This document shows, one piece after another, positions 27,989-45,612 of a stretch of 64,000 nucleotides of DNA. A program made the position numbers and the translations under genes. A model generated the notes under the pieces. That model ran no database searches. It was given only the letters and a program-made list of their open reading frames with translations, and had not been told where the DNA came from. The stretch's first letter is position 1, and every line of letters begins with the position of its first letter. Source of the stretch: Microbacterium sp. zg-Y1090 (GTDB lineage Bacteria > Actinomycetota > Actinomycetes > Actinomycetales > Microbacteriaceae); contig NZ_CP126742.1 in the NCBI RefSeq assembly GCF_030246945.1, positions 868,001-932,000 on the forward strand, read 5' to 3'.

Positions 27989-28008
27989 CAATTGATAATA
28001 ACCATTGT
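27989..28008. promoter_or_regulatory. GntR operator candidate, site C
   Basis: CAATTGAT-AATA-ACCATTGT. It shares AATTGAT-N4-ACCA with sites A and B and lies between the divergent aminotransferase and reductase genes. The right half is less symmetrical. Confidence 0.6.
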
Positions 28009-28048
28009 TGCGAATTGCGGGAACGCATGCTGCATAGGAGGAGAAGCG

Positions 28049-29008
28049 ATGGGGCCTGCAAGCACCGACGAGAGCATCGATCTGATCGTGCGCGACATGC
28101 GCTGGGAGGCGGATGACGTCCTCCGCCTGGGACTGGAGCGCCTCGACGGATCGTCCCTCCCGTCATGGGAGGCGGGCGCCCACATCGACCTCGTCCTCCC
28201 CGTGGGCGTCGAGCGTCAGTACTCACTCTCCTCTGACCCGTCGGACTCCTCGCGGTGGGAGGTTGCTGTTCTCCGGGAGGCTGTCAGCCGCGGCGGATCC
28301 CGCTTTATCCACTCAGAGCTGCGACCTGGCGCACGCGTCCAGGCCCGCGGGCCCGTAAACACGTTCCCGCTGACGGATGCCCAGGAGTACCTCTTCGTCG
28401 CCGGCGGGATCGGCATCACTGCCCTGCTGCCGATGATCGAGGCGGTCGCCCGGGCCGGCAAGCCCTTCCGCGTCGCCTACCTCGGGCGGCAGCGCGCGCG
28501 GATGGCCTACCTCGCGGACCCGCTTCTGCAGGGGCCACGTGTGACCGTCGTCGCCGCCGACGAGCACGAGCGCCTCGACCTGGACGCGTGGCTCGCGGCC
28601 CCCGCATCCGGTACCACCGTGTACGCCTGCGGCCCGGCGCGCCTGCTCGACACGCTCGAAGCGGCCAGCGCCAAGTGGCCCGGCGGGCTGCTGCGCGTGG
28701 AGCGGTTCCAGCCGAAGGTGTTCGCGGATGTCGCCGACGACTCGTTGTTCGAGGTGGAGGCCCGCCGCTCCGGCCTGCGGGTCACGGTCGAATCCACGTG
28801 CACGATCCTCGAGATGCTCGAGCAGGCTGGTGTTCCCGTGCCGAGCTCGTGCCTCGAAGGCGTCTGTGGCACATGCGAGACGACGATCCTCGACGGCGAG
28901 GCCGAGCACCGCGACAGCATCCTCGCCCCCGACGAACGCGCCGCTAACGAGACCATGATGATCTGCGTCTCCCGGTCGAAGCTTCCCACCCTCGTCCTCG
29001 ACATCTGA
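28049..29008 (+). CDS. oxygenase reductase (phthalate dioxygenase reductase type)
   Basis: 319 aa. An N-terminal flavin domain with RQYSLSSDPSD (binds FMN in this class), an NAD(P)H domain with VAGGIGITALLPMI and YACGPARLLD, and a C-terminal plant-type [2Fe-2S] domain with CLEGVCGTC followed by a fourth Cys in MMICVSRS. It passes electrons from NAD(P)H to the Rieske oxygenase encoded 16 bases downstream. AGGAGGAG lies just upstream of ATG 28049. This is a two-component oxygenase with no separate ferredoxin. Confidence 0.93.
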   Translation: MGPASTDESIDLIVRDMRWEADDVLRLGLERLDGSSLPSWEAGAHIDLVLPVGVERQYSLSSDPSDSSRWEVAVLREAVSRGGSRFIHSELRPGARVQARGPVNTFPLTDAQEYLFVAGGIGITALLPMIEAVARAGKPFRVAYLGRQRARMAYLADPLLQGPRVTVVAADEHERLDLDAWLAAPASGTTVYACGPARLLDTLEAASAKWPGGLLRVERFQPKVFADVADDSLFEVEARRSGLRVTVESTCTILEMLEQAGVPVPSSCLEGVCGTCETTILDGEAEHRDSILAPDERAANETMMICVSRSKLPTLVLDI

Positions 29009-29024
29009 TACCGGAGGCACAACC

Positions 29025-30227
29025 ATGGACACTGGAACCGCGTACGGGCTTCGTCCCGGCTCGCCACTCAACGACCTCGCCCAGGTGGGCCCCGGAACGC
29101 CCTACGGCGAGGTGCTACGCCGCTACTGGCAGCCCATCGCGAAGGCCGAGGATGCGACGACCCGGCCCATCAATGTGAAGGTGCTGGGCGAGGAGCTCGT
29201 CCTGTTCCGCACACGCAGAGGCGTGCCGGGGCTCCTGCACCCCCGCTGCATCCACCGCGGAGCCTCGCTGTTCTACGGCGGCGTCGAAGACGAGGGCATC
29301 CGCTGCTGCTACCACGGCTGGGTGTTCGACACCGAGGGGCACTGCCTGGAGCAGCCGTGCGAGCCGGAACTCGGTCTCCACCGCGACCGCGTGCGCCAGC
29401 CCTGGCACCCCGTGCAGGAGCAGTACGGCCTCATCTGGGCATACATGGGCCCGCCCGAGAAGAAGCCGATGCTGCCGCGCTACGACACGTTCGAGCACCT
29501 CGCCGACGACGAGGTGCTCATCGTCAACGACAAGGGCGTGGGCGGAGGCGGTCCTGAGATCCTCGATTTCAACTGGCTGCAGCACTGGGAGAACGTGATG
29601 GACCCGTTCCACGTGCCGATCCTGCATGCCCGCTTCAGCGGCAACCAGTTCACCCCCGAGATGGCCCTCATCCCCGAGGTGAGCTACGAGTACACGCCCA
29701 CCGGCGTCCGCTCAATCCAGATGCGCGAGCTCGGCGACGGCCGGCAGTTGCGCCGCGTGACGGAGGTCATGTTCCCGAACCTGCGCGTCGTCGCGTCGCC
29801 GAAGCTGGCATCGGGGCAGACGAACATGATCGGATGGGTCGTGCCGATGGATGACACGAACTTCCGCATCTTCACGGTGGCGCGCGACACCGACCCCGAG
29901 TTCCTTCAGAAGCTGCGCTCGACCCACGAGGGTAAGCCCTGGAAGGACCTCGCCGACCTCGAGCACCAGCGTCTCCCCGGCGACTACGAGGCCCAGAAGT
30001 CGCAGGGCGACATCTCGCTGCACACCGAGGACCACTTGACGACCACCGACCAGGGCATCGCGATGATCCGCCGCATGATGGCCAAGCAGATCCGCGCCGT
30101 CGCGGGCGGGGGAGACCCGGTGGGCGTCGTGTTCGACGAGGCCGACCGCGTCGTGCGCATCGAGGGCGGCAACTACTTCGAGGGTGCCGCCGAGGCGCCG
30201 CTGCTGGCCGACGCCGTCGAGGACTGA
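29025..30227 (+). CDS. Rieske non-heme iron oxygenase, catalytic subunit
   Basis: 400 aa, of the phthalate/vanillate type (alpha subunit only; no beta gene follows). Opening VGPGTPYGEVLRRYWQPIA is typical. Rieske centre: Cys75-X-His77, then Cys94-X2-His97 (RCCYHGW). Mononuclear iron site: Asp193-X2-His196-X4-His201 in MDPFHVPILH. Reactions in this class are ring hydroxylation, O- or N-demethylation, or related oxidations. It works with the reductase upstream. Substrate is unknown; the neighbours suggest an acid or amine derived from an amino-acid-like compound. Confidence 0.93.
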   Translation: MDTGTAYGLRPGSPLNDLAQVGPGTPYGEVLRRYWQPIAKAEDATTRPINVKVLGEELVLFRTRRGVPGLLHPRCIHRGASLFYGGVEDEGIRCCYHGWVFDTEGHCLEQPCEPELGLHRDRVRQPWHPVQEQYGLIWAYMGPPEKKPMLPRYDTFEHLADDEVLIVNDKGVGGGGPEILDFNWLQHWENVMDPFHVPILHARFSGNQFTPEMALIPEVSYEYTPTGVRSIQMRELGDGRQLRRVTEVMFPNLRVVASPKLASGQTNMIGWVVPMDDTNFRIFTVARDTDPEFLQKLRSTHEGKPWKDLADLEHQRLPGDYEAQKSQGDISLHTEDHLTTTDQGIAMIRRMMAKQIRAVAGGGDPVGVVFDEADRVVRIEGGNYFEGAAEAPLLADAVED

Positions 30228-30230
30228 CCC

Positions 30231-30722
30231 ATGCTGCCCAACTACCTGCCGCGCCCTCCCCGAGGAGACCGACCCCTCGTCGTCCTCGGCATCAGCGACG
30301 TCGTCGTGATCGAAGGTTCCGCCTCGGTGCCGGTGACGACGCACCGTGTGAGCGCGTGGGGCCGGTGGGTGCGCGATGTCGCGATCCCCGACGACGCGGC
30401 GGCGCGCATCGCCCGCCTCGCCGACCGCTACGAGGTCGTGTGGGCGTCGGAATGGGGTCACAACGCGCACACGGCGTTCGCCGCGGCGCTGCAGCTCCCC
30501 GACGAGCCCTGGCCGTTCCTGCCGGTGCAGTTCGACAAGATCGACCGCATCCGCGCCTACGCGAAGGGCCTCCCGTGGGCGTGGATCGACGGCCCCGTCG
30601 TGGACCTGCACGCGACGGACGGCGTGGACGACGGCATCGTCATCCGCGTCGACCCGGCGTCGGGCATCAGCGGCGTCGACCTCGAAGCCCTTGACGCGCA
30701 GCTCGCGGAGCTCGCCCGATGA
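30231..30722 (+). CDS. HAD-like protein lacking catalytic aspartates
   Basis: 163 aa. The overall pattern matches small HAD-fold proteins of the Swiss-army-knife repair type: PLVVL at strand 1, YEVVWASEW at motif II, a lone Lys (FDKIDRI), and WAWIDG at motif IV, then RVDPASGIS and a last helix. However, strand 1 reads LGISDVVV where active members read L-D-V-D-G-V, so both Asp are replaced (Gly and Ser). That makes phosphatase chemistry unlikely. It sits between the oxygenase and the amidohydrolase, 3 bases after one and overlapping the other, so it belongs to the pathway operon. Its role is open: substrate binding, regulation or a scaffold. Confidence 0.7.
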   Translation: MLPNYLPRPPRGDRPLVVLGISDVVVIEGSASVPVTTHRVSAWGRWVRDVAIPDDAAARIARLADRYEVVWASEWGHNAHTAFAAALQLPDEPWPFLPVQFDKIDRIRAYAKGLPWAWIDGPVVDLHATDGVDDGIVIRVDPASGISGVDLEALDAQLAELAR

Positions 30723-31936
30723 GCGCCGACTACGCCGGCCACGCCGGCCTCGGCGGACTCCGTGCCGACGCGGCGGGCATGCTGTCCGAGCTCGTGGCGC
30801 TGCGCCGCGATCTGCACCGGCATCCGGAGGTCGGCTTCGACCTGCCCCGCACGCAGGCCGCCGTGCTCCACGCCCTCGACGGGCTCGGGCTCGACATCAC
30901 GACCGGGATGTCGCTCGGATCGGTGACGGCGGTGCTGCGCGGTGGCCGCCCGGGACCGTCGGTGCTGCTGCGCGCCGACATGGACGCCCTCCCCGTCGTG
31001 GAGGAGACCGGCCTCGACTTCGCGTCCCACAAGGACGCGATGCACGCCTGCGGACACGATCTGCATGTGGCGGGCCTCGTCGGTGCGGCGCGGCTGCTCA
31101 GCGCGCGCCGTGACCGCATCGACGGGTCGGTCGTGTTTATGTTCCAGCCGGGCGAGGAGGCCGGCGGAGGTGCGCCGCGCATGATCGCCGAGGGCGTGCT
31201 GGATGCCGCGGGCGACCGTGTCGAGGCCGCCTACGGCATCCACGTGCTGCCGGGCCGGGCGGGGGAGTTCTTCACGAAGTCCGGTCCGCTCATGGGCGGC
31301 GCGAACATGCTGCGCGTGCGGGTCGTCGGTCGCGGCGGCCACGGATCGCGCCCGCACCAGGCCGTCGATCCGGTGCCCGTGCTGGCGCAGATCATCCTCG
31401 CGCTGCAGACCTACGTCACCCGCCGCGTATCGGTCGAGGATCCCGTCGTCGTGTCGGTCACGAAGCTGCGCGCGAGCGACGCCGTCAATGTCATCCCGGA
31501 TACCGCCGAGTGCGCCGCGACCGTCCGCACCCTGTCGCCGGCGACCCTCGCGCAGCTGCGGGTGGAGCTACCGAAGCTGGCCGAAGACATCGCCGCCGCC
31601 CACGGTTGCGTCGCCGAGGCCGAGTTCGAGGTCGCCTACCCCGTGACGGTCAACGACGCGGATGCCACCGCCGCCGCCCTCGGCGTGCTACGCGACGCGT
31701 TCGGCGCGGAGCGGGTGCGGGTGCTCGATGCGCCGATCATGGCATCAGAGGACTTCTCGTTCGTGCTGCAGGAGGTGCCGGGAGCGTTCGTGTTCCTCGG
31801 GGCGACTCCCGCGACGATCGCGCCCGAGGACGCTGAAATGAACCATTCGCCGCGCGCCGTGTTCGACGACGGCATCCTGGGAGATCAGGCCGCCGCGCTC
31901 GCGGCGCTCGCCTTGCGCCACGTCGCGCGCCGCTGA
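30719..31936 (+). CDS. M20D amidohydrolase (hippurate/IAA-amino acid hydrolase type)
   Basis: 405 aa. Metal-site motifs: ADMDALPVVEETGL, HACGHDLHVAGL and FQPGEEAGGG, with the dimer-domain motif GRGGHGSRPHQ and a C-terminal MASEDFSF. The group removes acyl groups from amino acids (hippurate, auxin conjugates) and also acts on some dipeptides. No signal peptide, so cytoplasmic. ATG overlaps the preceding stop. A close paralogue lies at 41469 in the same cluster; the shared openings (LRRDLHRHPEVG versus LRREIHADPELG) show duplication and divergence. Confidence 0.9.
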   Translation: MSADYAGHAGLGGLRADAAGMLSELVALRRDLHRHPEVGFDLPRTQAAVLHALDGLGLDITTGMSLGSVTAVLRGGRPGPSVLLRADMDALPVVEETGLDFASHKDAMHACGHDLHVAGLVGAARLLSARRDRIDGSVVFMFQPGEEAGGGAPRMIAEGVLDAAGDRVEAAYGIHVLPGRAGEFFTKSGPLMGGANMLRVRVVGRGGHGSRPHQAVDPVPVLAQIILALQTYVTRRVSVEDPVVVSVTKLRASDAVNVIPDTAECAATVRTLSPATLAQLRVELPKLAEDIAAAHGCVAEAEFEVAYPVTVNDADATAAALGVLRDAFGAERVRVLDAPIMASEDFSFVLQEVPGAFVFLGATPATIAPEDAEMNHSPRAVFDDGILGDQAAALAALALRHVARR

Positions 31937-32012: not shown

Positions 32013-32753
32013 TCAGCGGCCGAGGGTGCGGTGCCGGACGATCGCGTCGCGCTGGATGTCGATGTTGCGGCTGCGGATTGCTTCGACGAGGTCGCGGTGG
32101 ATCTGCAGGCGCTCGTCGGTATCCGGGTGGAAGCCGAGCACATCGAAGGTGCGCGATTCGCCGACGCTCTCGGACTCGATGTAGTCGACGAGATTGAGGT
32201 AGAACGTGCGCAGCACGGCGTTGGGCGTGATCTGCGCGATGCGGCGGTGAAGGCGCCAGTTGCCGTGGAGCCCCGCGATTGGGTCGTGCCAGGTCTCGAC
32301 CACCTCGACGAGCAGCGCGTCGAGTTCGGCGAGGTCGGCGTCGGTGCGGTGCTCGGCGGCATCCCGCAGCACGGCCTCGTCGAGCGCGTCGAGCACTTCG
32401 ACGATGTCGTTCACGGTCGCGCCCTGCTGGCGCAGCGACAGCACGTCGTGAGCGAGGCGCAGTAACGGCGACTGCTCGGCGACGAAGATGCCGCCGCCGG
32501 GGCCAGGGCGCACCTCTATGACCCCACGGGCACGCAGCACGCGGAGCGCCTCGCCGAGGGTCGCGGAGGCCACGCCGTAGCGTTCGCACAGTTCGTGCTT
32601 CGTTCCGATGCGGTAACCCGGTTGCCGGTTTTCGCGCGCAATGAGGTCCTCGATCTCGCGAACGACGCCATCGGCAACCGATTGGCTGATCCGCGCTCTT
32701 CCGCCATGGAATGCGTGCTGCTCCGACGCGATCTCGCGGGAGAGGGATGACAT
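32013..32753 (-). CDS. GntR-family regulator, FadR subfamily
   Basis: 246 aa. Winged helix near residues 25-90: GTKHELCERYGVASATLGEALRVLRARGVIEVRPGPGGG. The all-helical C-terminal ligand domain has DALDEAVLRDAA, LHRRIAQ and HRDLVEAI, with His residues placed as in the metal-binding FCD type. Ligands in this subfamily are usually carboxylic acids. ATG 32753 has GGAGG upstream; the longer open frame is shadow. It is divergent from the ThDP gene, with site A between, so it probably controls itself and the cluster. Confidence 0.88.
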   Translation of the reverse strand: MSSLSREIASEQHAFHGGRARISQSVADGVVREIEDLIARENRQPGYRIGTKHELCERYGVASATLGEALRVLRARGVIEVRPGPGGGIFVAEQSPLLRLAHDVLSLRQQGATVNDIVEVLDALDEAVLRDAAEHRTDADLAELDALLVEVVETWHDPIAGLHGNWRLHRRIAQITPNAVLRTFYLNLVDYIESESVGESRTFDVLGFHPDTDERLQIHRDLVEAIRSRNIDIQRDAIVRHRTLGR

Positions 32754-32859: not shown

Positions 32860-32879
32860 TAATTGATTGTAACCAATAG
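32860..32879. promoter_or_regulatory. GntR operator candidate, site A
   Basis: TAATTGAT-TGTA-ACCAATAG, 31 bases before the ThDP gene and 107 before gntR. Same design as site B: TAATTGAT, four bases, then AYCAAT. Confidence 0.68.
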
Positions 32880-32909
32880 GATGATCTCGATTGACCCCGA
32901 AAGGACCTC

Positions 32910-34595
32910 ATGACAGCCACCACGGGAGGCGACCTCCTCGCCGACGCGCTCATCGCCCAGGGAATCGACACCGTCTTCGGCATCCCCGGGGTCCAGCTCG
33001 ACGGCGCGGCCGACGCGCTCTACCATCGGGCCGACAGAATCGACTTCGTCTGCGCGCGGAACGAACAGGCCACCACGTACATGGCCGACGGATACGCGCG
33101 TTCGACAGGCAAGGTCGGCGTCGCGATGGTCGTCCCGGGCCCAGGTGTGCTGAACGCCCTCGCGGGCGTCGCGACGGGCTACTCGGCCAACTCGCAGACC
33201 CTCCTCATCGCGGGGCAGATTGACTCGCACGCGATCGGCAAAGGGCTCGGTGCCCTGCACGAGATCCCTGACCAGACCGGCATCCTCGAACGCCTTACGA
33301 AGTGGACCGGCACCGCCCGGTCGGCCGCCGAGGTTCCCGGCCTCGTCGCCGAGGCCTTCCGCCAGCTGAAGAGCGGCCGTCCGCGCCCCGTCGCGCTGGA
33401 GGTCCCGCCGGACGTGCTTACCGCGACGGCGGAAGCCGCAATCGCGGGCCTCGTCACACCGGCGCCCATCGTGCCCGACCAGCGCGACGTGGCCCGTGCC
33501 GCCGAACTGCTGCGCGCCTCGCGTCGCCCCATGATTGTCGTCGGTGGCGGTGTCATCGCGGCAGGCGCTTCGGCGGTGCTTCGCGAACTCGCCGAGTTGC
33601 TCGAAGCCCCGGTGCTCATGACCGAGAACGGCCGCGGCGCGCTCGACGCGCGTCACCGCCTTTCGTTCGACAGCCTCGCGTTGCGCACGCTCCGTGAGGA
33701 CGCCGACCTCGTGCTCGCCGTCGGCACGCGCTTTGTGTCGACATTCGGCACGCAGGTCGATACCAACGGCGCCCCCGTGATTCTCATGAACGCCGAGTGC
33801 GCTGATCTGGAAGGCCCGCGCGCCTCGGCCCTCGCGATCCTCTCCGACGCGCGTGTCGGTCTCGAAGCGCTCGTCGCCGAGATTGGCGCAGTGAGCCGCG
33901 AAGACCGCAGTGCGGAGTTCGCGGCGGTTCGGGCCTGGCTGGAGGAGCAGCTCGCCGACATCGCGCCGCAGCGCGAGTATCTTGGCGCGATCCGCCTGGC
34001 GCTGCCCGAAGACGGCGTCTTCGTGAGCGAGTTCACGCAGGTGGGCTACGCCGCGAGCATGTGCTACCCCGCCTACCAACCGCGCACGTACGTCGGCCCC
34101 GGCTACCAGGGCACGCTTGGCTACGGGTTTGCCACGGCGCTCGGGGTCAAGGCCGCCGACCCGTCGCGCGCGGTCGTGTCGGTCAACGGTGACGGCGGGT
34201 TCTCCTGGACCCTGCAGGAACTCTCGACGATGAAGCGCTACGGCCTCGGGCTCACGACCATCGTGTTCCACGACGGGTTCTACGGCAATGTCCGCCGCAT
34301 CCAGAAGAACCGCTATGGCGCCCGCTTCTTCGCGAGTGACCTCACGAACCCCGACTACCCGGCCCTCGCTGGTGCGTTCGGCATCGCCTCGGTGACCGCG
34401 CACGACCCGGCGTCTCTCGCGGGCGTACTGGCGGATGCCGTGACCGCCAACGAGCCGATCCTCATCGACGTGCCCGTCGGTGAGTTCCCCTCGCCGTGGC
34501 ACCTCATCCACGAGGGCGTGCCGCGCCCCGCGCCACTTCCGGCGGGCTCTCACCTCGCCCCGGCCCTGCAGGGACAGGGGGTCACCTCCGCATGA
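32910..34595 (+). CDS. ThDP-dependent enzyme, 2-oxo acid decarboxylase/acetolactate synthase-like
   Basis: 561 aa with the three-domain layout of the family. The activating Glu is E52 in ARNEQATTYMADGYAR. The cofactor motif starts GDGGFSWTLQELSTMK with Asp428. At the place of the usual Mg2+-ligand Asn there is His454 (FHDGFYGN). No clear FAD-binding pattern. Coupled (ATGA) to an aldehyde dehydrogenase, so decarboxylation of a 2-oxo acid to an aldehyde is the best guess, as in benzoylformate, phenylpyruvate or indolepyruvate decarboxylases. Acetolactate-type condensation is the alternative. GAAAGGA precedes ATG 32910. Confidence 0.85.
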   Translation: MTATTGGDLLADALIAQGIDTVFGIPGVQLDGAADALYHRADRIDFVCARNEQATTYMADGYARSTGKVGVAMVVPGPGVLNALAGVATGYSANSQTLLIAGQIDSHAIGKGLGALHEIPDQTGILERLTKWTGTARSAAEVPGLVAEAFRQLKSGRPRPVALEVPPDVLTATAEAAIAGLVTPAPIVPDQRDVARAAELLRASRRPMIVVGGGVIAAGASAVLRELAELLEAPVLMTENGRGALDARHRLSFDSLALRTLREDADLVLAVGTRFVSTFGTQVDTNGAPVILMNAECADLEGPRASALAILSDARVGLEALVAEIGAVSREDRSAEFAAVRAWLEEQLADIAPQREYLGAIRLALPEDGVFVSEFTQVGYAASMCYPAYQPRTYVGPGYQGTLGYGFATALGVKAADPSRAVVSVNGDGGFSWTLQELSTMKRYGLGLTTIVFHDGFYGNVRRIQKNRYGARFFASDLTNPDYPALAGAFGIASVTAHDPASLAGVLADAVTANEPILIDVPVGEFPSPWHLIHEGVPRPAPLPAGSHLAPALQGQGVTSA

Positions 34596-36055
34596 CCGGC
34601 GTACGCGGGCACTATATCGACGGCGCATGGACCGATCCTGTCGGCCGCGAGGTCATTGCCGTCGACAACCCGGCCGACGGGTCGATGGTCGGGGCGGTCG
34701 TCGCCGGGGACGCCGGCGACGTCGAGCGCGCCGTGACCGCCGCCCGTCGTGCGTTCAACCCGTGGGCTGCGCGCCCGATGGCGGAGCGCATCACATTTGT
34801 CGAGGCGCTAGCCGGGGGGCTCGAACGGCACCGCGACCGTCTCGCCGAGACGCTGACCGCCGAGATGGGAGCGCCGATCGCCTTCGCCCGCACGGCGCAG
34901 GTGGGGGTCGCGATCGGCGACCTCCTGCACCTCATCGCCGCAGCGAAGGCGCACATCGACCGTGAATCGGTGTCGAACAGCCTCGTCGTGACGGAGCCGG
35001 TGGGTGTCGTGGCGGCGATTACCCCGTGGAATTTCCCTCTGCATCAGATCATGCTCAAGATCGGTGCGGCGATGCTCGCCGGGTGTACGACCGTGCTGAA
35101 GCCCAGTGAGATGGCCCCGCTCAACGCCGCGATCGTCGGCGAGATCCTCGATGAGATCGCCCTTCCCGCCGGTGTCGTGTCGATCGTTTTCGGCGACGGC
35201 CCGCGGGTCGGATCGTCTCTCGTGGAGCATCCCGACGTCGACATGGTGACCTTCACCGGCTCGCGCGGGGTCGGGGAGTACATCGCGCGCGCCGCCGCGG
35301 CGACAATCAAGAAGGTTGCTCTGGAGCTCGGTGGCAAGTCGGCTGCGGTCATCCTCGACGACGCGCCCGTCCACGACTCGGTCGCCGGAGTGCTGCGCTC
35401 GTGCTTCGCGAACACCGGGCAAACGTGCGCGGCGCTCACGCGCGTGCTCGTCCCTGAGTCGCTGCGCGACGAGTGGGAGCGGGCGGCGGTCACCGAGGCG
35501 GCGCGCTGGCAGCCGGGCGATCCCAGTGCGTCCGGCACCGCGATGGGTCCGCTCGCGTCGTCGTTGCAGCGCGCCCGCGTGCTGACGCACATGGCCGCAG
35601 CGCAGGAGGACGGCGCGCGCCTGCTTGTCGGCGGTCCAGAGCCGCTCAATCTGCCGGGCGCGTACGTGCGCCCGACCATCTACTCGGACGTTACGCCGGA
35701 AATGCGGATCTTCCACGAGGAGGTCTTCGGCCCGGTGCTCACGATCACGGGCTACGACGTGCTGGAGGATGCGATCACCCTCGCGAACAACAGCATCTAC
35801 GGTCTCTCCGGCGGGGTGTGGTCGGCTGACCGTCGCCGCGCCCTCGACGTGGCGCTCCGTCTGCGCACGGGGACCGTGGGAATCAACGGCGCCGGTCTCG
35901 ACGTCGGCGCCCCGTTCGGCGGCTACAAGCAGTCCGGATTGGGCCGAGAAGCAGGAAGCCGCGGGTTCGAGGAGTTCCTCGAAGTGAAGGCCGTCATGGG
36001 AGCAGCGGAGCTTCTCGACGACGGACGGGCTGAGAAGACTCGGTCCGTCAGATGA
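34592..36055 (+). CDS. aldehyde dehydrogenase
   Basis: 487 aa, NAD(P)-dependent ALDH superfamily. VAAITPWNFPLHQ binds the cofactor, FTGSRGVGEYI follows, the general base is E245 (LELGGKS) and the nucleophile is C279 (NTGQTCAA). EEVFGPVLTI and GGYKQSGLGRE close the fold. It should oxidise the aldehyde made by the ThDP enzyme to a carboxylic acid. ATG 34592 overlaps the previous stop. Substrate range cannot be told from sequence. Confidence 0.93.
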   Translation: MTGVRGHYIDGAWTDPVGREVIAVDNPADGSMVGAVVAGDAGDVERAVTAARRAFNPWAARPMAERITFVEALAGGLERHRDRLAETLTAEMGAPIAFARTAQVGVAIGDLLHLIAAAKAHIDRESVSNSLVVTEPVGVVAAITPWNFPLHQIMLKIGAAMLAGCTTVLKPSEMAPLNAAIVGEILDEIALPAGVVSIVFGDGPRVGSSLVEHPDVDMVTFTGSRGVGEYIARAAAATIKKVALELGGKSAAVILDDAPVHDSVAGVLRSCFANTGQTCAALTRVLVPESLRDEWERAAVTEAARWQPGDPSASGTAMGPLASSLQRARVLTHMAAAQEDGARLLVGGPEPLNLPGAYVRPTIYSDVTPEMRIFHEEVFGPVLTITGYDVLEDAITLANNSIYGLSGGVWSADRRRALDVALRLRTGTVGINGAGLDVGAPFGGYKQSGLGREAGSRGFEEFLEVKAVMGAAELLDDGRAEKTRSVR

Positions 36056-36093
36056 CGTCAATACGTAATACCCGCGAAACATCCATATCCACA

Positions 36094-36113
36094 TAATTGA
36101 TACCAATCAATTA
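36094..36113. promoter_or_regulatory. GntR operator candidate, site B
   Basis: TAATTGATACCAATCAATTA: perfect 8-bp arms around ACCA, the best-formed of the four related sites. It lies 44 bases upstream of the binding-protein gene that heads the transporter operon. Confidence 0.72.
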
Positions 36114-37731: not shown

Positions 37732-37741
37732 GTAGTTCCGC

Positions 37742-38755
37742 ATGACAACCGACACGACCGTGTCCTCGGCGCCCGCCGTGGCGGCTCCTTCGCGGAGCCG
37801 CCACGGCGGCCCTTGGGTCGTCTTCCTCGTCCGACGGCTGATCCGGTCGCTCGTGGCGATGTGGGTCATCGTCACGGCGGCGTTCCTCGTGCTGCGTGCC
37901 GCCGGGGGCGACCCCGTGCGCGCCGCGCTGGGCGCCACGGCCGACGAATCCGTCGTGCAGGCCCGTCGTGAGCAGCTGGGGCTCGACCAGCCCCTCATTG
38001 TCCAGTACGTCGACTACCTCCTCGGCCTCCTGCGCGGCGACCTCGGCGCGTCGCTGATCACGGGCCGCGAAGTGACCGACCTGGTCGCCCAGCGCATGCC
38101 CGCCACCCTCGAGCTCGCCGCGCTGTCGTTCGTCGTCATCCTCCTCGTGGCCGTGCCGCTCGGCCTGTTCGTCGCGATCCTCACGCAGGGCGGACGCCGC
38201 CGCGGCGCCGAAGTCGCCTTCACCGGCGTCACCGCGTTCATCGCCGCAATCCCCGAATACCTCCTCGGCGTCGTGCTCATCATCGTGTTCGGCATCACGG
38301 CGCACCTGCTGCCGGTGGCCGGCCGCGGCGGCCCCGAGTCGTACATCCTCCCCGTCGCGGCGATGTCGATCGCGGCCTCGGCATCCATCGCCCGCATCGC
38401 CCGCATCGAGGCGCTCGCGACCCTGGGGGACGACTACGTGCGCACGGCGCGCTCCAAGCGCCTGCCGGCCGCGCTGGTCTACTTCAGGCATGCGCTCCCG
38501 AACATGCTGACCGCGACGCTCACGATCGGCGGCACCATGCTCGGCACGATGGTCGCCAGCGGCGTGCTCGTCGAGCAGGTCTTCAACTGGCCGGGCCTCG
38601 GCACCGCGTTCGTCGGGGCCATCACGGCCAAGGACTACGGCATCGTGCAGGGTCTCGCCCTCGTCTACGCCGCGATCATCCTGACGATCAACCTCATCGT
38701 CGACATCGTCCTGTCGCTCCTCGACCGACGCACCACCCTCATGGAGACGTCATGA
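37742..38755 (+). CDS. ABC transporter permease, DppB type
   Basis: 337 aa, about six membrane helices. Contains the usual N-terminal helix, GDPVRAALG, a loop with RREQLGLDQPLIVQYVDYL, and the coupling motif region EALATLGDDYVRTARSKRL. Partner of the permease half of the next gene, with which it overlaps (ATGA). Eleven bases follow the binding-protein stop. Confidence 0.93.
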   Translation: MTTDTTVSSAPAVAAPSRSRHGGPWVVFLVRRLIRSLVAMWVIVTAAFLVLRAAGGDPVRAALGATADESVVQARREQLGLDQPLIVQYVDYLLGLLRGDLGASLITGREVTDLVAQRMPATLELAALSFVVILLVAVPLGLFVAILTQGGRRRGAEVAFTGVTAFIAAIPEYLLGVVLIIVFGITAHLLPVAGRGGPESYILPVAAMSIAASASIARIARIEALATLGDDYVRTARSKRLPAALVYFRHALPNMLTATLTIGGTMLGTMVASGVLVEQVFNWPGLGTAFVGAITAKDYGIVQGLALVYAAIILTINLIVDIVLSLLDRRTTLMETS

Positions 38756-40665
38756 CCCCTCGTCGACGCCGCCTCGCCGTCCAGCCGATGGCCGTCATCA
38801 CCGCCCTCATGCTGGCTTTCATCGTCTTCTTCGCCGTCTTCGCCCCCATCTGGTGGGGCGAAGAGGCCGTGCTGGCCAACCCCGACGCCATCGCGCTGCC
38901 GCCCTCGGATTCGCATCCGCTCGGCACCGACAACCTGGGCCGCGACATCCTCGTTCGCACGCTCGTCGCGACGCGCCTGTCGCTCCTGATGGCCCTCGCC
39001 GCCACCGCCCTCGGCGCCGTCGCCGGACTCCTGGTGGGCGCGCTGCCGGCCGTCATGGGGCCTCGGGCGCAGCGCGCCTTCTCGAACATCATCGCGACGT
39101 GGCTCGCGTTCCCCGTGCTGCTGGTCGCGATGCTCACCGTGATCCTGCTCGGCCCGGGCTCGGCGACCGCCGTGCTCGCCCTCGCGCTCACGATGACGCC
39201 GTCGTTCGCGCGTCTCGCGCAGACGCTGTCGGCGCGGGTCGCGGGCTCCGAGTACCTCGCGGCGGCGCGGATGCTGGGGGTCTCGCGTGGCCGCCAGTTC
39301 ACGCACTACATCCTCCCGAACATCGCCGAGCCCGTCATCGTCAACGTGACGACGTCGATCGGCGGCGGCCTGCTCGCGCTGTCGAGCCTCAGCTTCCTCG
39401 GGATCGGCGTGCAGCCGCCCGAGTTCGACTGGGGTCGCATGTTGTCGGAGGGCTTCGCGCAGGTGTACGTGTCGCCTGTCGCGGCGATCGGACCGGGTGT
39501 CGCGGTCGTGTTCTCGGGCCTCGCATTCAGCATGCTCGGCGAGTCGCTCGCGGCGCACATGCGTCACCGCAGCGGCCGCACGGTGCGCTCGCCCCGTCGC
39601 CTGGGGGCCGCACCCCGTACGCTCGTGCCGGCCGCGCCGGCGCCCGCCGAGCAGCCGCTCCTGGACGTGCAGGGCCTGTGCATCTCGTTCCCCGGCGAAG
39701 ACGGCTGGATCCGCACGGTGCAGGACGTGTCGTTCCGCGTGGGTCGCGGCGAGCTCGTCGGCGTCGTCGGCGAGTCGGGCAGCGGCAAGAGCGTCACGAT
39801 GATGTCGATCGCGCAGCTTCCTCCCGCCGGTGCCATCGTCACAGCCGAGCGCATCACGTTCGAGGGCGACGAGCTGGCAGGGCTCTCGCCCGAGCGGGCG
39901 GGCAGAGCGCTGGGCACCCGCATCGGCGTCGTCTTCCAGGACTCGCTCACCGCGCTCAACCCCGCCCTCCGGGTCGGCACGCAGCTCGGCGAAGTGCCGC
40001 GCGTGCACGGCGGCGCGAGCCGCGCCGAGGCGCGCGCCGCCGCCGTCGCCGCGCTCGACGCGGTCGACATCCCGGATGCCGAGCACCGTGCGGGCCAGTT
40101 CCCGCACGAGTTCTCCGGCGGGATGCGCCAGCGCGCGCTCATCGCGATGTCGCAGATTGGCGCACCCGCCCTCGTGATCGCCGACGAGCCGACGACCGCT
40201 CTCGACGTGACGGTGCAGCGCCGCGTGCTGCAGCTGTTGCGGCGCCAGTGCGAAGACAACGGCTCGGCGGCGCTCGTCGTCTCGCACGACATCGCGGTGC
40301 TCGGCGAACTGTGCCGCCGCATCCTCGTGATGTACGCCGGACGCATCGTCGAAGACGTTGATGCCACTCTGCTGGCATCCCCCGAGAAGCTCGCGCACCC
40401 GTACACGCGGGCACTCGCGGCGTCGCTGCCCGACCTTGACACCGACCGCACGAAGCCGCTCGCGACGATCGCCGGCGAGCCGCCGGACCTGTCCAGGCCG
40501 ATCGCGGGCTGCGCCTTCGCAGCGCGCTGCCTGTTCGCGACCGAACGCTGCCGCACGGAGGCGCCCGTCCTGCGCGAGCATCCGCACGGCGGCCGCGTGG
40601 CCTGCTGGCACCCGCAAGACGGCGTCTCGGTGCCGCTCACGACCCGCGCGGAGGTGGCTTCCTGA
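38752..40665 (+). CDS. fused ABC permease (DppC) and ATPase (DppD)
   Basis: 637 aa, about the sum of two usual subunits. Residues 1 to about 285 form a DppC-like permease (SHPLGTDNLGRDILVRTL, EYLAAARMLGVSRGRQF). After a Pro/Ala/Arg linker, an ATPase begins near 300: Walker A GESGSGKS (about 342-349), Q loop VFQDSLTALNP, signature FSGGMRQRA (about 452-460) and Walker B LVIADEPTTALD. The C-terminal oligopeptide-transporter cap has CAFAARCLFATERC with its Cys pattern. The fusion is continuous without frameshift. Confidence 0.92.
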   Translation: MTPRRRRLAVQPMAVITALMLAFIVFFAVFAPIWWGEEAVLANPDAIALPPSDSHPLGTDNLGRDILVRTLVATRLSLLMALAATALGAVAGLLVGALPAVMGPRAQRAFSNIIATWLAFPVLLVAMLTVILLGPGSATAVLALALTMTPSFARLAQTLSARVAGSEYLAAARMLGVSRGRQFTHYILPNIAEPVIVNVTTSIGGGLLALSSLSFLGIGVQPPEFDWGRMLSEGFAQVYVSPVAAIGPGVAVVFSGLAFSMLGESLAAHMRHRSGRTVRSPRRLGAAPRTLVPAAPAPAEQPLLDVQGLCISFPGEDGWIRTVQDVSFRVGRGELVGVVGESGSGKSVTMMSIAQLPPAGAIVTAERITFEGDELAGLSPERAGRALGTRIGVVFQDSLTALNPALRVGTQLGEVPRVHGGASRAEARAAAVAALDAVDIPDAEHRAGQFPHEFSGGMRQRALIAMSQIGAPALVIADEPTTALDVTVQRRVLQLLRRQCEDNGSAALVVSHDIAVLGELCRRILVMYAGRIVEDVDATLLASPEKLAHPYTRALAASLPDLDTDRTKPLATIAGEPPDLSRPIAGCAFAARCLFATERCRTEAPVLREHPHGGRVACWHPQDGVSVPLTTRAEVAS

Positions 40666-41465
40666 TGGCAGAGCTCGTCATCGATGACCTGACGGTCACG
40701 TTCGGGCACGGCGCCAAGGCGATCAACGCCGTCGACGGCGTGTCACTCACCGTGCCCAGCGGCACCATCGTGGGCCTCGTCGGCGAGTCGGGGTCGGGTA
40801 AGTCGACCGTCGCGCGCACCGTCGCCGGCCTCCAGAAGGCCACTGCCGGACGCATCTCGCTCGACGGCAGTGACCTGCTCGACGCCAAGGCGTCGCGCCG
40901 CGAGCGCGCCCGTGACGTGCAGATGATCTTCCAAGACCCGTACTCGTCGCTCAACCCCCGCATGACCGTGGGCGAGACGATCGGCGAAGCGCTCGCCATC
41001 CACTCGGGCCGTTCGGCGGCAGGACGCAAGGCCTCGGTGCGCGAACTGCTGGAGCTCGTGCGCCTGAAAGCGTCGGCGGCCGACCAGTACCCCTCGCAGC
41101 TGTCGGGCGGCATGCGCCAGCGTGTCGCGATCGCGCGGTGCCTGGCCGTCAAGCCCCGCCTGATCGTCGCCGACGAGATTACGTCGGCACTCGACGCCTC
41201 CGTGCAGGGGGCGGTGCTGAACCTCATCCGCGACCTGCAGCGCGACCTCGGCCTATCGATGCTCTTCATCACCCACAACCTCGCTGCCGTCCGCTACATC
41301 GCCGACACCACTGCCGTCATGCGGACGGGAAGGATCGTCGAGGTCGCGGGAGCCGAAATGATCGTGTCGGCGCCCACCCACCCGTACACCCGGAGCCTCG
41401 TCGCGGCCATCCCCCGCATCGAGCACGCCGGCACCGACCACCTGCTCACCTCTGGAGAGGACTGA
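40665..41465 (+). CDS. ABC transporter ATPase, DppF type
   Basis: 266 aa. Walker A GESGSGKST near residues 39-47, Q loop IFQDPYSSLNPRMT, signature LSGGMRQRVAIAR, Walker B LIVADEITSALD. The second ATPase of the importer, one-base overlap with the fused gene. It lacks the Cys-rich cap of DppD, as expected for DppF. Confidence 0.92.
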   Translation: MAELVIDDLTVTFGHGAKAINAVDGVSLTVPSGTIVGLVGESGSGKSTVARTVAGLQKATAGRISLDGSDLLDAKASRRERARDVQMIFQDPYSSLNPRMTVGETIGEALAIHSGRSAAGRKASVRELLELVRLKASAADQYPSQLSGGMRQRVAIARCLAVKPRLIVADEITSALDASVQGAVLNLIRDLQRDLGLSMLFITHNLAAVRYIADTTAVMRTGRIVEVAGAEMIVSAPTHPYTRSLVAAIPRIEHAGTDHLLTSGED

Positions 41466-41468
41466 TCC

Positions 41469-42653
41469 ATGACCCTCGTCGACGACGCGCGCGCGCTGCT
41501 CCCCGACCTCGTGCGGCTGCGCCGCGAGATCCACGCCGACCCCGAGCTCGGACTCACGTTGCCACGCACGCAGGCCCGCGTCGTCGCGGCCCTCGAAGGT
41601 CTCGGCCTGGAGATCACGCTCGGCACGGGCCTCGACTCGGTCGTCGCGGTGCTGCGCGGTGCGCACCCCGGGCCGTCGGTGCTGCTGCGGGGCGACATGG
41701 ACGCCCTCCCCATCGTCGAGCAGACCGACCTCGACTTCCGTTCGGAGAACGGCGCGATGCACGCGTGCGGCCATGACTTGCACGCCGCGGGCCTCGTGGG
41801 CGCTGCGCGCCTGCTCGCCGCGCGACGCGACGAGCTGCATGGCGATGTCGTGTTCATGTTCCAGCCCGGCGAGGAGCTGGGAAACGGCGCCGAGATCATG
41901 GTCGACGAAGGGGTGCTCGATGCCACGGGCACCCGGGTGAGCGCCGCGTACGGCCTGCACGTCGTTCCCGGTATCAAGGGCGTCTTCTCGACGCGGCCCG
42001 GTCCCATCATGGCGGGCGCTCTCGAACTCGAGGCGACGATCATCGGCAAGCCCGGCCACGCGTCGCAGCCGCACTTCGCGGTCGACCCGGTGCCTGCCGC
42101 CGCCGAGATCGTCACGGCCCTCCAGAGCTACGTCACGCGCCGTCACTCGGTGAGCGACCCCGCCGTCGTCACCGTCACGAAGCTCGCCGCCGGGGGCGAT
42201 GCCTTCAACGTCATCGAGGGCACCGCGTACCTCGGCGGGTCGGTGCGCGTCGTGTCGGAAGACGCCCTCGCGCGCGTGAAGACGGAGATCCCCGCCCTGA
42301 TCGCCGCGATCGCCCAGGCGCACGGGTGCACGGCGGAGGTCAGGCTCGATCTGCTGTGCCCTCCGACGACGAACGACGTCGCCCTCGGCGAAGCGGCGCT
42401 CGGAGAACTCGCCCGCGTCTTCGGGCAGGAACGCGTCTGGACCACTCCCGCTCCCGTCATGGGCTCAGAGGACTTCAGCTACGTGTCGCGCGAAGTGCCG
42501 GCCGTGTACTTCTACCTGCGGTCGACGCCCGACCACCTCGATCCCGAGACGTCGGCGCCCAACCACACGCCCTTCGCGCTGTTCGACGACAGTGTGCTCG
42601 GCGACCAGGCGGCCGCGCTCGCCGCGCTCGCGCTCAGCCACCTGCAGCGGTGA
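41469..42653 (+). CDS. M20D amidohydrolase, second copy
   Basis: 394 aa. Motifs GDMDALPIVEQTDLDF, HACGHDLHAAGL, FQPGEELGNG, GKPGHASQPHFAVDPV and MGSEDFSY. Paralogue of the gene at 30719. Cytoplasmic. It follows the importer by 3 bases and overlaps the carboxypeptidase gene (GTGA), so it should act on what the importer brings in: N-acyl amino acids or dipeptides. Confidence 0.9.
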   Translation: MTLVDDARALLPDLVRLRREIHADPELGLTLPRTQARVVAALEGLGLEITLGTGLDSVVAVLRGAHPGPSVLLRGDMDALPIVEQTDLDFRSENGAMHACGHDLHAAGLVGAARLLAARRDELHGDVVFMFQPGEELGNGAEIMVDEGVLDATGTRVSAAYGLHVVPGIKGVFSTRPGPIMAGALELEATIIGKPGHASQPHFAVDPVPAAAEIVTALQSYVTRRHSVSDPAVVTVTKLAAGGDAFNVIEGTAYLGGSVRVVSEDALARVKTEIPALIAAIAQAHGCTAEVRLDLLCPPTTNDVALGEAALGELARVFGQERVWTTPAPVMGSEDFSYVSREVPAVYFYLRSTPDHLDPETSAPNHTPFALFDDSVLGDQAAALAALALSHLQR

Positions 42654-44023
42654 GTACTCTCACGCGGCACCGCCTGGGCGACCGGGAGTACGCGTGCCAC
42701 GTCGAGTCGTGGAACCTCGAGATCGATGACCGTGTCGTCGCCGACGCGTGGACCTTCGGCTACGTCACGGAGCCCATCGACCGCGCACGGCCGGTGCTGT
42801 TCCTGTTCAATGGCGGCCCGGGCGTCGCATCGATGTGGCTGCACCTGAGCGGGCTCGGCCCGTTCAAGGCCGACACCCCGGTCGATCTTGACGCCCCGGC
42901 GTCCGCCACGTCGCCCCTCGTGCCGAGTGCGCACACGCTGCTCGATGAGGTCGACCTCGTGTTCGTCGACCCTGCGAACACCGGATTCTCGCGCTTGGCC
43001 GACGGCGCCGAGCCGTCGGAGGCCACCGGCGTCGACCGCGACGCCGCGCTCACCGCCCAGGTGATCCGCCGCTGGCTGCGCCGCCACGGGCGCTTCGCCT
43101 CTCCCGTAGCACTGCTCGGCGAGAGCTACGGCACCGTGCGCGCGCCGCTCACGGCCACCGCCCTGCGGCAAGACGGCATCATCGTCACCCGCATCGCCCT
43201 GCTCGGACAGTGCCTCAACACCCAGGAGGTCAACCAGCGGGCGGGGAACGCCGCCGGCTACGTCGCCGCCCTCCCGTTCCTGGCCGCCACCGCCTGGTTC
43301 CACGGGCGGAGCGCCCACGCCGACCTGACGCTCGACGAGGTGACCCGCACCGCTCACGCCTTCGCCGTGCGCGACTACGCGCTCGCGCTGGGCGAGGCCG
43401 AGCCCGCAGGCGCCGTCGTCGACACGCTCGCCGGGTTCACGGGGCTCACGCCCGCGCAGCTGCGCTGCCGGCGCCTGCGCGTCGACAAGGAGGAGTTCCG
43501 CCGCATCCTCCTCGCTGACGCCGGCCGCACGGTCGGCCTCACCGACACCCGGTACACGATCGCCGCCGGCGACGAGCGCGAGCCGTACCTGGATGCCGCC
43601 GACGTGCGACTCGCCCCCGTGTTCACCGCCGCGCTGCACGAGCTGTTCACGGGGCCGCTCGGGCTGTCGGTCGAGCGGGATTACCGCCCCGCCGTCTCGT
43701 CGCACCGGTACTGGAACTACCTCGAGGCGTCGGCCCTCCACCGATTCGACGCGAGCCCCACGCCGTCGCCGTTCGCCGTGTTCGACTATCCCGCGCACCT
43801 GAGCGCCCTCTTCCGCGCCGACCCGCGCACCCGCGTGTTCATCGGCACGGGGCACTTCGACGCCCTGACGACCGTCGGCGCCGTCGAGCACCTGAAGGCC
43901 CAGTACGGCCTCCCCGCCGACCGCATCAGCGAAGGCCGCTACCCCGCGGGTCACATGATGTACTCCGACCCGGCGAGCCTCGCCGCGCTGTCGGCCGATC
44001 TGCGCGCGTTCCTGCGCGACTGA
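42650..44023 (+). CDS. serine carboxypeptidase, family S10, cytoplasmic
   Basis: 457 aa from GTG 42650, which overlaps the previous stop. Motifs: FLFNGGPGVASMWLH (oxyanion region), VFVDPANTGFS, nucleophile Ser159 in GESYGT, and a probable Asp404 (GTGHFDALT) and His435 (PAGHMMY). No signal peptide, unlike eukaryotic S10 enzymes, so it should work on imported material. The family removes C-terminal residues at acidic pH or acts as an acyltransferase. Confidence 0.88.
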   Translation: MSTLTRHRLGDREYACHVESWNLEIDDRVVADAWTFGYVTEPIDRARPVLFLFNGGPGVASMWLHLSGLGPFKADTPVDLDAPASATSPLVPSAHTLLDEVDLVFVDPANTGFSRLADGAEPSEATGVDRDAALTAQVIRRWLRRHGRFASPVALLGESYGTVRAPLTATALRQDGIIVTRIALLGQCLNTQEVNQRAGNAAGYVAALPFLAATAWFHGRSAHADLTLDEVTRTAHAFAVRDYALALGEAEPAGAVVDTLAGFTGLTPAQLRCRRLRVDKEEFRRILLADAGRTVGLTDTRYTIAAGDEREPYLDAADVRLAPVFTAALHELFTGPLGLSVERDYRPAVSSHRYWNYLEASALHRFDASPTPSPFAVFDYPAHLSALFRADPRTRVFIGTGHFDALTTVGAVEHLKAQYGLPADRISEGRYPAGHMMYSDPASLAALSADLRAFLRD

Positions 44024-44090: not shown

Positions 44091-44112
44091 CCGTGGCCGA
44101 GGTCTGTTCGGG

Positions 44113-45585
44113 TTAGACCTCGACGGGGGTGTGGTCGGTCGCGTCCGCGTAGAATGCGTGCAGGTCGGTCACCATCTGGGCGATGACGACCTCGTCGACG
44201 AACGTCATGTGCCCCGACTCGTAGAAGCGGAAGCGGATGTTCTCGCGCAGGTCGGGCGCCAGGTACAGGCGCGAGATGTCGACCTCCGACGAGAAGAACG
44301 GGGTCGCGAGGTCGTACACGCCGCCCATGACCGCGACCTTCAGGTTCGGGTTGCGACGGATCGCGGCCGACAGGTCGAGGCTCACATCGGGCACGAACTG
44401 GGGAGCGTCGATGCCGGGGGCCTTGTGCTTCCAGTCCCACGCGCGAGAGATGGGCATGTTGTAGAGGTGGCGGTAGTGCAGCTCGCTCGTGTAGCCGAGG
44501 TCGCCGGCGACGTGCTCACGGAACGTCGACAGGTGCGCGCTGTTCACGCCGGCGGTGGCGGCGTCGTCGGTCGCCGGGTCGTGCGAGCCGTTGCCCACGA
44601 CGTACTGGTGCTCGGCGACGAAGCGGGTGTCGAAGCGGCCGACGACACGGCCCTGATCCTTCAGCAGCGCGTAGCGGAACGGCTCCATGCCGATTCGGAA
44701 GTGCGCCGCCAGCACGGCGTCGACCTCGAGGCCCGTGAACGCGGCGTACCGCTCGGCGACGGTGCGCTCGAAGTCTGTGTCGATGCGGTCGCCCAGCTGC
44801 AGTGCGCGGGCGTAGTCGCCCTGCGCGAAGTCGCGCGCGTCGGCCAGTAGCGTCTCGAGCGACGCTGCCTCCACGCGGCAGCGGCCGTGATGCCAGGCGG
44901 TCGCCGCGAACGAAGGCACCAGGTTGATGTACTCCTGATCGAAGCCCAGGTTGTTGAGGCCCCAGTTGAGCACGGTCGACAGCAGCACGACGCCGTTGAA
45001 GTCGAGTCCCTGGTTCTGGAGCTTGTGCACGAGCGCCGCCGAGCGGGTCGTGCCGTACGATTCGCCGAACAGGAACCGCGGGGTGTTCCAGTTGTTCGTG
45101 ATCGTCAGGTAGCGCGTGATGGCGCGCGCGAACGCATCAACATCCTGGTCGACGCCGTACAGCTGCGCCGCCGTCGTGTCACCGAGCAGACGCGAGTACC
45201 CGGTGCCCGGCGCATCGAGGAACACCATGTCGGTCTCGGCGAGCAGCGTATGCGGGTTCGGTCCGACCGTGTACGGAGCGGGAGGCGTGGCCGTGGGGGT
45301 CGCGGTGGGCGCGCGCATCGGGCCAAACCCTCCGATGTTGAGCCACAGGCTCGCAGAGCCGGGACCGCCGTTGAAGAAGAAGGTCAGCGGGCGCCGTGGT
45401 GCGCCGGCAAGGCGGTCGGCAGCGTACGCAAGGTAGAACATGCTCGCGAGCGGCGTGCCCTCGTCGTCGCGAACGATTATGGTGCCCGCCGTTGCGGTGT
45501 AATCGATACTTCCGGCCGCCAGGGTTATCGAGTGCCGGCTCGAGACGGCTTCCTCTGTGTGCGTGGCGGGCTCATAGTCGGTCAT
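44113..45585 (-). CDS. serine carboxypeptidase, family S10, second copy
   Basis: 490 aa. TFFFNGGPGSASLWLNIGGF, FLDAPGTGYSRL, Ser176 in FGESYGTTRS, a probable Asp in GGVYDLATPF and His in YESGHMTF. No signal peptide. Closer to the usual bacterial S10 pattern than the neighbouring copy. Convergent with the importer operon and with its own promoter; site D overlaps the likely promoter. Confidence 0.9.
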   Translation of the reverse strand: MTDYEPATHTEEAVSSRHSITLAAGSIDYTATAGTIIVRDDEGTPLASMFYLAYAADRLAGAPRRPLTFFFNGGPGSASLWLNIGGFGPMRAPTATPTATPPAPYTVGPNPHTLLAETDMVFLDAPGTGYSRLLGDTTAAQLYGVDQDVDAFARAITRYLTITNNWNTPRFLFGESYGTTRSAALVHKLQNQGLDFNGVVLLSTVLNWGLNNLGFDQEYINLVPSFAATAWHHGRCRVEAASLETLLADARDFAQGDYARALQLGDRIDTDFERTVAERYAAFTGLEVDAVLAAHFRIGMEPFRYALLKDQGRVVGRFDTRFVAEHQYVVGNGSHDPATDDAATAGVNSAHLSTFREHVAGDLGYTSELHYRHLYNMPISRAWDWKHKAPGIDAPQFVPDVSLDLSAAIRRNPNLKVAVMGGVYDLATPFFSSEVDISRLYLAPDLRENIRFRFYESGHMTFVDEVVIAQMVTDLHAFYADATDHTPVEV

Positions 45586-45592
45586 GCGCGCT

Positions 45593-45612
45593 CCAATGAT
45601 CCAAACGATTAC
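45593..45612. promoter_or_regulatory. GntR operator candidate, site D (weak)
   Basis: CCAATGAT-CCAA-ACGATTAC. Same spacing as sites A-C, with TGAT-N4-AC kept, but several changes. It lies 8-27 bases upstream of the minus-strand carboxypeptidase start. A possible promoter for that gene has TTGACC (complement of 45630-45635) as -35. Confidence 0.4.

Follow-up and report, generated by a model that had tools for sequence, protein, structure and literature searches.

A TATA-centred palindrome as the probable operator of an FCD-type GntR regulon in a Microbacterium catabolic cluster

Is a whole catabolic gene cluster run by a single regulator, and through which DNA sites? A 64,000-nucleotide stretch of the Microbacterium sp. 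zg-Y1090 genome (contig NZ_CP126742.1, positions 868,001 to 932,000; hereafter the window) raises this question. It holds a gene for a GntR-family regulator (gntR) among genes for an aminotransferase, a Rieske oxygenase, a thiamine diphosphate (ThDP) enzyme, a peptide-type transporter and several peptidases. An initial annotation had proposed that a family of 20-base-pair (bp) sites, A to D, links these genes into one GntR regulon. Comparison across genomes supports that proposal through the recurrence of the sites and through the co-occurrence of the motif with the regulator's clade. We put at roughly 0.87 the probability that the cluster's own FCD-type GntR uses these sites as operators for repression; on the same sequence comparisons, control of the whole cluster by this regulator as one unit is very probable.

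Four related sites stand at the heads of the transcription units

The four 20-mers were confirmed where the initial annotation had placed them (Table 1), with D framed there as 45593-45612. The palindrome without mismatch, which had been assigned to B, is C: all eight outer arm pairs are complementary in C, compared with five in B and four each in A and D. Allowing up to two mismatches, the core ATTGATNNNNAYCAWT gave nine strand-matches in the window, each palindromic place counting twice; 100 shuffled windows gave a mean of 1.26 and a maximum of 8, none reaching nine. At three mismatches there were 30 strand-matches vs 16.3 after shuffling, and none of the 100 shuffles reached 30. No place in the complete genome (3,068,413 bases) other than A, B and C carries the exact core; with a single mismatch it is present at one more, 1030697. 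A looser pattern, AWTSRTNNNNAYSAWT, is found exactly at A, B, C and the earlier frame of D and nowhere else in the genome, but it was built after the relatives and D had been seen and is therefore weak evidence for D.

Scores come from a symmetric 20-bp matrix for which A, B and C were the only training sites (the window-only matrix). The fourth-ranking place in the window was 45602-45621, with a score of 21.4. It lies 9 bp from the earlier frame of D, which scores 8.0, and the two frames have half-site sequence in common. The earlier description of D as weak holds for the original frame. The best window match overlapping none of the four sites scored 7.8. Among 23 candidate places of the genome that were given loci and scored (about 25 further listed places were left out), A, B, C and re-registered D scored 21.4-35.8 and the next 12.2. 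Because A stands between two divergent units, as many as five transcription units have one of the four sites at their head, and B possibly heads gntR as well.

The sites recur at the same control regions in relatives

A scan of genome contigs, requiring exact peptide words, returned at least 12 loci with GntR relatives of 61-80% identity: Microbacterium album, M. sufflavum, M. paraoxydans, M. oxydans, three further Microbacterium, a Galactobacter metagenome-assembled genome, Leifsonia Root4, Arthrobacter MYb23 and two Streptomyces. A separate genome search added a 13th cluster (G022). Homologs of the ThDP enzyme, aldehyde dehydrogenase (ALDH), transporter, Rieske oxygenase, reductase and aminotransferase are present in all 13.

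With the window-only matrix, 37 of 39 control regions contained a better match than any other part of their locus. The mean region score was 22.3, vs 7.05 (standard deviation 2.0, maximum 20.1) for 1000 column-permuted matrices, none of which reached the observed mean score or separation. All 13 clusters have a site in the A region (scores 18.0-34.5) and in the B region (16.0-29.0), and 11 have one in the C region (24.5-32.3). Among these 13, the C region is without a site in L055 and L057. The transporter of L055 begins 26-50 nt past the ALDH gene (the figure varies with the choice of start codon), and so it probably shares operator B. Apart from those two C regions, the relatives thus carry sites at the control points to which the initial annotation had assigned A to C.

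The distribution of the regulator is patchy. Only G022 among 97 other genomes (98 relatives searched) has a GntR of at least 60% identity, and none of the 393 other genomes in a 394-genome sample of the class has one (best 48%; at most seven candidates were scored per genome). Together with the copies of 61-63% identity in Streptomyces and Arthrobacter, this pattern suggests transfer between lineages. A phage-type integrase (46165-47388) and a tRNA-Lys gene (47521-47594) adjoin the cluster edge; a search of the window with 14-bp words gave no att repeat for the tRNA-Lys region.

The motif accompanies the FCD-type GntR

The protein annotated as a FadR-type GntR was upheld by Pfam, with both domains above cut-off: the N-terminal GntR winged helix (PF00392) at 34.9 bits, cut-off 27, and the C-terminal FCD domain (PF07729) at 56.3 bits, cut-off 24.3, over residues 116-241. 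It was also said to be the only regulator of the cluster, and a Pfam scan of 19 window proteins in or adjoining the cluster revealed no other.

To compare motif and regulator, nine GntR relatives that are not in the pooled matrix (L019-L024, L113-L115; 33-48% identity, 110-210 bits) were set against 22 weaker GntR paralogs with assigned loci, scoring under 62 bits (L025-L046; one of them, L034, reaches 40% identity, but along only part of the sequence). The pooled matrix finds a match of at least 12.7 in the locus of seven of the nine relatives and of none of the 22 paralogs, whose best is 12.5 (Fisher p 1.4e-5, for a cut picked after the scores were seen). At about 16 or more the counts are 5/9 and 0/22 (p 7e-4), and the window-only matrix gives at least 14.9 in five of the nine, the best among the paralogs being 9.7. 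The motif tracks the GntR clade and not its weaker paralogs. In G005, whose GntR is 48% identical, sites lie upstream of the ThDP homolog (31.3) and of the aminotransferase homolog (24.9).

FCD histidines H169, H219 and H241 are invariant in an alignment of 12 sequences and, judged by their spacing, may correspond to H134, H174 and H196 of TM0439. FCD metal sites usually have an Asp four residues ahead of the first His; here that residue is Asn, or Met in one of the 12 sequences. By analogy with FCD proteins (PMC6608401), the three invariant histidines suggest that the GntR ligand would be a carboxylate held by a metal.

Architecture of the operator

Forty sites scoring above 14, from 14 clusters including that of the window, reduce to 28 unique sequences. 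Their symmetrised consensus is YAATTGAT-TATA-ATCAATTR, worth 30.9 bits against the genome's own base composition. The initial annotation had left the four middle bases free; a fully free N4 centre is ruled out, as they are mostly TATA. Dyad symmetry and an ACCA/ATCA arm are seen, with A in 66% of arms where the TKGT/ACMA box has G. A, B and C share a 4-nt GT-AC spacing with the 28-site consensus.

In 39% of 33 distinct contexts, which include close relatives, an additional half-site of the right type starts 9 bp downstream of the start of the second arm, vs 3% at the mirror position. A second dimer may be recruited by such a third half-site. For GntR-family sites, weak additional half-sites at 7-12 nt from the centre have already been described (PMC4494728). 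Window places with a third half-site 9 bp downstream are 27998-28017 and 45593-45621.

A GlnR-type box precedes the transporter

Immediately ahead of operator C lies a box of the type bound by the nitrogen regulator GlnR. Compared with GTnAC-n6-GAAAC, it has T in place of the last C of the a-site. Several GlnR targets carry two contiguous boxes; the scoring here covered single strict boxes. Of 14 clusters, 10 (the window, L047-L054 and L059) have a box of the type G[TA]NA[CT]-N6-GAAAC ahead of the transporter, and nine of the 13 clusters outside the window have exact GTNAC-N6-GAAAC there. A GlnR gene is present at the far end of the window; its product matches the GlnR_1st profile (PF21695) above cut-off at 150 bits, and matches PDB 8hih and 8hig over nearly its full length and 4o1h ('Transcription regulator GlnR') with its N-terminal part.

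In the genome, GTNAYN6GAAAC occurs at eight places and its reversed control at one. One of the eight is 113 bp upstream of the start codon of amtB, a classic GlnR target (GlnR targets and the GlnR box are described in PMC10704036). With a GlnR gene and a matching amtB box in the genome, the transporter is probably under double control by GntR and GlnR, and the box predicts that the substrate would serve as a nitrogen source.

Promoter placement and proposed mechanism

Inspected by eye, the putative promoter of the reductase-Rieske operon ends within operator A (Table 1), and in L047 and L049-L054 TTGACA and TACTAT, 17-18 bp apart, finish just ahead of it. Operator B probably sits between -35 and -10, namely TTTGCG (32854-32859) and TAGGAT (32877-32882); it fills the spacer between TTTGC and TAGGAT- or TACAGT-like hexamers. 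Promoters placed in this way fit a repressor that acts by occlusion.

The computation gives the sites, where they lie, how far they are conserved and how they co-occur with the GntR; from this we infer GntR binding, repression, an inducer and an action of GlnR. Without ligand, a GntR dimer on YAATTGAT-TATA-ATCAATTR would keep RNA polymerase out: at A, D and probably C the operator overlaps or abuts the -10 element, and at B it fills the -35/-10 spacer. The aminotransferase, reductase/Rieske, ThDP/ALDH, transporter/M20 and S10 units would thereby be repressed. The likely inducer is a small acid derived from the imported substrate and bound in the FCD pocket; its binding would free the DNA, so that uptake, hydrolysis, transamination, decarboxylation and oxidation would come on together. 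The transporter unit would probably also be turned on by GlnR at nitrogen shortage, and full uptake would then require both substrate and nitrogen need.

Alternative readings

Could the sites be something other than operators of this repressor? Conserved AT-rich promoter elements, such as -10 regions or UP-like DNA, would also be located at predicted promoters, and AT-rich permuted matrices often pick the same regions. Column permutation, however, lowers the mean score from 22.3 to 7.05, and the sites are dyad-symmetric with a constant 4-nt spacing. Their placement relative to -35 and -10 varies among A, B and C by eye, and the motif accompanies the GntR clade, while 22 other GntR genes from similar genomes lack it nearby. 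We regard the promoter-element explanation as the least credible. Binding by another regulator, encoded elsewhere, would suit the 4-nt spacing, which is closer to that of HutC-subfamily sites (PMC4494728). It is nonetheless highly improbable: the motif occurs beside GntR relatives of 33-48% identity elsewhere, some without nearby Rieske, reductase and ThDP homologs, the GntR is the only regulator among the scanned proteins, and exact sites in the genome are confined to the cluster. There is a small chance that the GntR acts as a local activator, or as repressor or activator depending on the site. FadR-subfamily members can do both, according to position (HypR and FadR, PMC6608401), but none of the four sites lies well upstream of a predicted -35. 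Repression is favoured over activation since, by eye, core promoter elements are predicted to overlap with A, B and D.

Site D might have entered the regulon by chance, the real regulon being A-C. Its earlier frame scores low, and from base composition the relaxed exact pattern is expected about 0.4 times by chance in the genome. S10b, the carboxypeptidase-like gene that D heads, was compared in 15 genomes. Orthologs of 72-77% identity are present in nine of the 12 contig-scan genomes (G098-G105, G107) and in G022; no match was found in the two Streptomyces or in G005, and the Arthrobacter homolog is only 30% identical. In seven Microbacterium the region upstream of S10b holds the best matches of the locus, at only 10.1-15.5 with the pooled matrix and 7.2-11.8 with the window-only matrix. 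In M. album (L067), where S10b lies codirectionally behind the amidohydrolase gene M20b, it lacks a site of its own (best 2.0). The Galactobacter contig ends within S10b, the upstream region lying outside the data. Against chance stand the re-registered score of D, 23.9 with the pooled matrix, from which D was likewise left out, and the finding that none of 2000 column-permuted matrices reached 21.4 in the D region. In Leifsonia, where S10b is convergent to M20b, the upstream site (L068) scores 25.9 with the pooled matrix and at best 13.8 with the window-only matrix; there the other carboxypeptidase gene, S10a, sits behind operator A (L056) and therefore needs no site of its own. Sites thus lie at unit heads and none inside units, which supports D as a true, weaker operator; a chance origin is unlikely.

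Several observations weigh against operators of a single GntR regulon with a GlnR input. The permuted matrices win a mean of 22.5 of the 39 control regions and 6 of 1000 reach 37; as AT-rich matrices are drawn to AT-rich promoter DNA, site counts by themselves are weakened as proof, and the comparison relied on score and separation. Of the 13 clusters, seven (L049-L054, L059) are close Microbacterium relatives, worth little more than one. L057 has no site C although its gap of 82-106 nt is not obviously internal to an operon, the D counterparts in the seven Microbacterium genomes are weak, and two of the nine held-out GntR relatives (L021 and L022) have no site. Among the 14 clusters, the GlnR box was not found in two Streptomyces and one Arthrobacter, and Leifsonia fails the strict pattern, with GAAAC-N6-GTTAC there by eye. 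Finally, FadR-subfamily sites have a GT-AC distance of 3 nt, or 2 in some groups (PMC4494728), so that 4 nt is unusual; this mismatch bears on the operator type, and FadR/FCD membership by domains stands.

Genes of the cluster

The reading of the sites as GntR operators would join the cluster genes listed in Table 1. They include an aminotransferase, a ThDP enzyme, an ALDH, a Rieske oxygenase, an Opp-type transporter, two M20 amidohydrolases and two S10 peptidases, a set that would suit growth on an amino acid, probably aromatic and bound in a peptide or amide, that supplies carbon and nitrogen. A candidate route for an aromatic amino acid, by transamination, then decarboxylation and oxidation of the aldehyde, fits the predicted enzymes. 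Of the two amidohydrolases, the first was searched and is related to N-acyl-amino-acid and indole-3-acetic acid (IAA)-amino-acid hydrolases. The aminotransferase was searched from 27941, its start codon at 27944 being taken from the sequence. PDB and family searches of the cluster proteins gave no conclusive substrate, and no title naming the cluster was found in the open-licence PMC literature.

Pfam gives no match for the small protein of the reductase-Rieske operon, and its orthologs in L049 and L058 have a weak HAD_SAK_2 match below cut-off. In M. sufflavum (L049, 11975-13564) an extra amidohydrolase (Amidohydro_3/1), without counterpart in the window, lies between the small protein and M20; other Microbacterium loci show a similar gap. 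In one Streptomyces (L058, 14614-17951) kynureninase and tryptophan 2,3-dioxygenase domains follow the cluster, which may be chance or a hint of the substrate.

Table 1. Coordinates of the sites and genes discussed (window numbering)
Feature	Position	Strand	Remarks
HisC/phenylalanine-type aminotransferase	26832..27944	-	NF002878 over cut-off; best PDB match 4r2n, putative phenylalanine aminotransferase
Putative reductase-Rieske operon promoter	27971..27999	+	TTGACG 27971-27976, 17-bp spacer, GATAAT 27994-27999 within operator A; by eye
Operator A, CAATTGATAATAACCATTGT	27989..28008	+	Divergent intergenic region, aminotransferase / reductase
Reductase-Rieske operon	28049..31936	+	Four genes
Ferredoxin-type reductase	28049-29008	+	In reductase-Rieske operon
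Rieske oxygenase	29025-30227	+	In reductase-Rieske operon
Small protein	30231-30722	+	In reductase-Rieske operon; conserved
M20 amidohydrolase	30719-31936	+	In reductase-Rieske operon
FadR/FCD-type GntR regulator	32013..32753	-	Pfam domains
Operator B, TAATTGATTGTAACCAATAG	32860..32879	+	Intergenic, gntR / ThDP gene
ThDP/ALDH operon	32910..36055	+	Two genes
ThDP enzyme	32910-34595	+	NF006122 over cut-off
Aldehyde dehydrogenase	translated from 34610	+	Aldedh 491.7 bits
GlnR-type box GTAAT-ACCCGC-GAAAC	36065..36080	+	13 bp ahead of operator C
Operator C, TAATTGATACCAATCAATTA	36094..36113	+	8+4+8 palindrome without mismatch; start codon of substrate-binding protein (SBP) 43 bp downstream
Transporter operon	36157..44023	+	Six genes; single operon judged from spacing
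SBP	36157	+	Transporter operon
OppB-like permease	37742	+	Transporter operon
Permease-ATPase fusion	38752	+	Transporter operon
ATPase	40665	+	Transporter operon
M20 amidohydrolase (M20b)	41469	+	Transporter operon
S10 peptidase (S10a)	about 42650-44023	+	Transporter operon
S10 carboxypeptidase-like gene S10b	44113..45585	-	Peptidase_S10 42.2 bits; headed by operator D
Operator D re-registered, CTATTCATAGTAATCGTTTG on - strand	45602..45621	-	S10b start codon 16 bp on; overlaps 45593-45612
GlnR nitrogen regulator	63287..63985	-	Profile and PDB matches

Discussion

How does this regulon compare with known systems? Regulons of FadR-subfamily (FCD) GntR proteins, including LldR, PdhR and GlcC, have been surveyed (Suvorova et al. 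2015, PMC4494728). The present system resembles those of LldR, PdhR and GlcC in its winged helix-turn-helix plus FCD regulator, its AT-rich palindrome with arms in part like TKGT/ACMA, its local catabolic regulon with divergon sites and its weak extra half-sites nearby. It departs from them in the GT-AC distance, 4 nt and not 3 or 2, and in arms that are mostly TGAT/ATCA around a mostly TATA centre, where theirs are TGGT/ACCA. The 4-nt spacing is shared with HutC-subfamily operators (NyGTMTAKACNy), whose regulators carry a chorismate-lyase-like domain, unlike the FCD domain found here (PMC4494728). HypR of Streptomyces coelicolor resembles the regulator proposed here: it is an actinobacterial FCD protein that represses amino-acid catabolic genes, with a site covering the -10 of the HypR promoter itself. 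Its motif, CTNTGC(A/C)ATGTCAC, and its genes differ (PMC6608401). At agl3EFGXYZ of S. coelicolor, a GntR-family repressor, Agl3R, and GlnR are reported to act on one ABC transporter operon, as proposed here; both repress that sugar transporter, whereas for the Opp-type transporter we propose activation by GlnR (PMC10704036).

A local catabolic regulon of the FCD-GntR type is thus already known; the unusual operator spacing and the likely second input from GlnR set this one apart. A broader idea, with the odds somewhat against it, is that a clade of FCD regulators reads TATA-centred, HutC-like 4-nt operators, often with a third half-site 9 bp downstream. This clade may have moved across Actinobacteria with an undescribed pathway for peptide or acyl amino acid catabolism, uptake being gated jointly by substrate, through GntR, and by nitrogen shortage, through GlnR.

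The check by an A-C matrix and genome search that the initial annotation had called for, and that on relatives, both came out for one GntR regulon, as far as sequence evidence carries it. At least four transcription units would be joined into a single testable regulon, which groups the genes of the pathway and includes the S10 peptidases at its edge. The GlnR-type box directly upstream of site C and the 4-nt operator spacing are newly noticed. The operator offers a search key for the same pathway in other genomes, and a reporter on site A or C would be a simple means toward finding the substrate.

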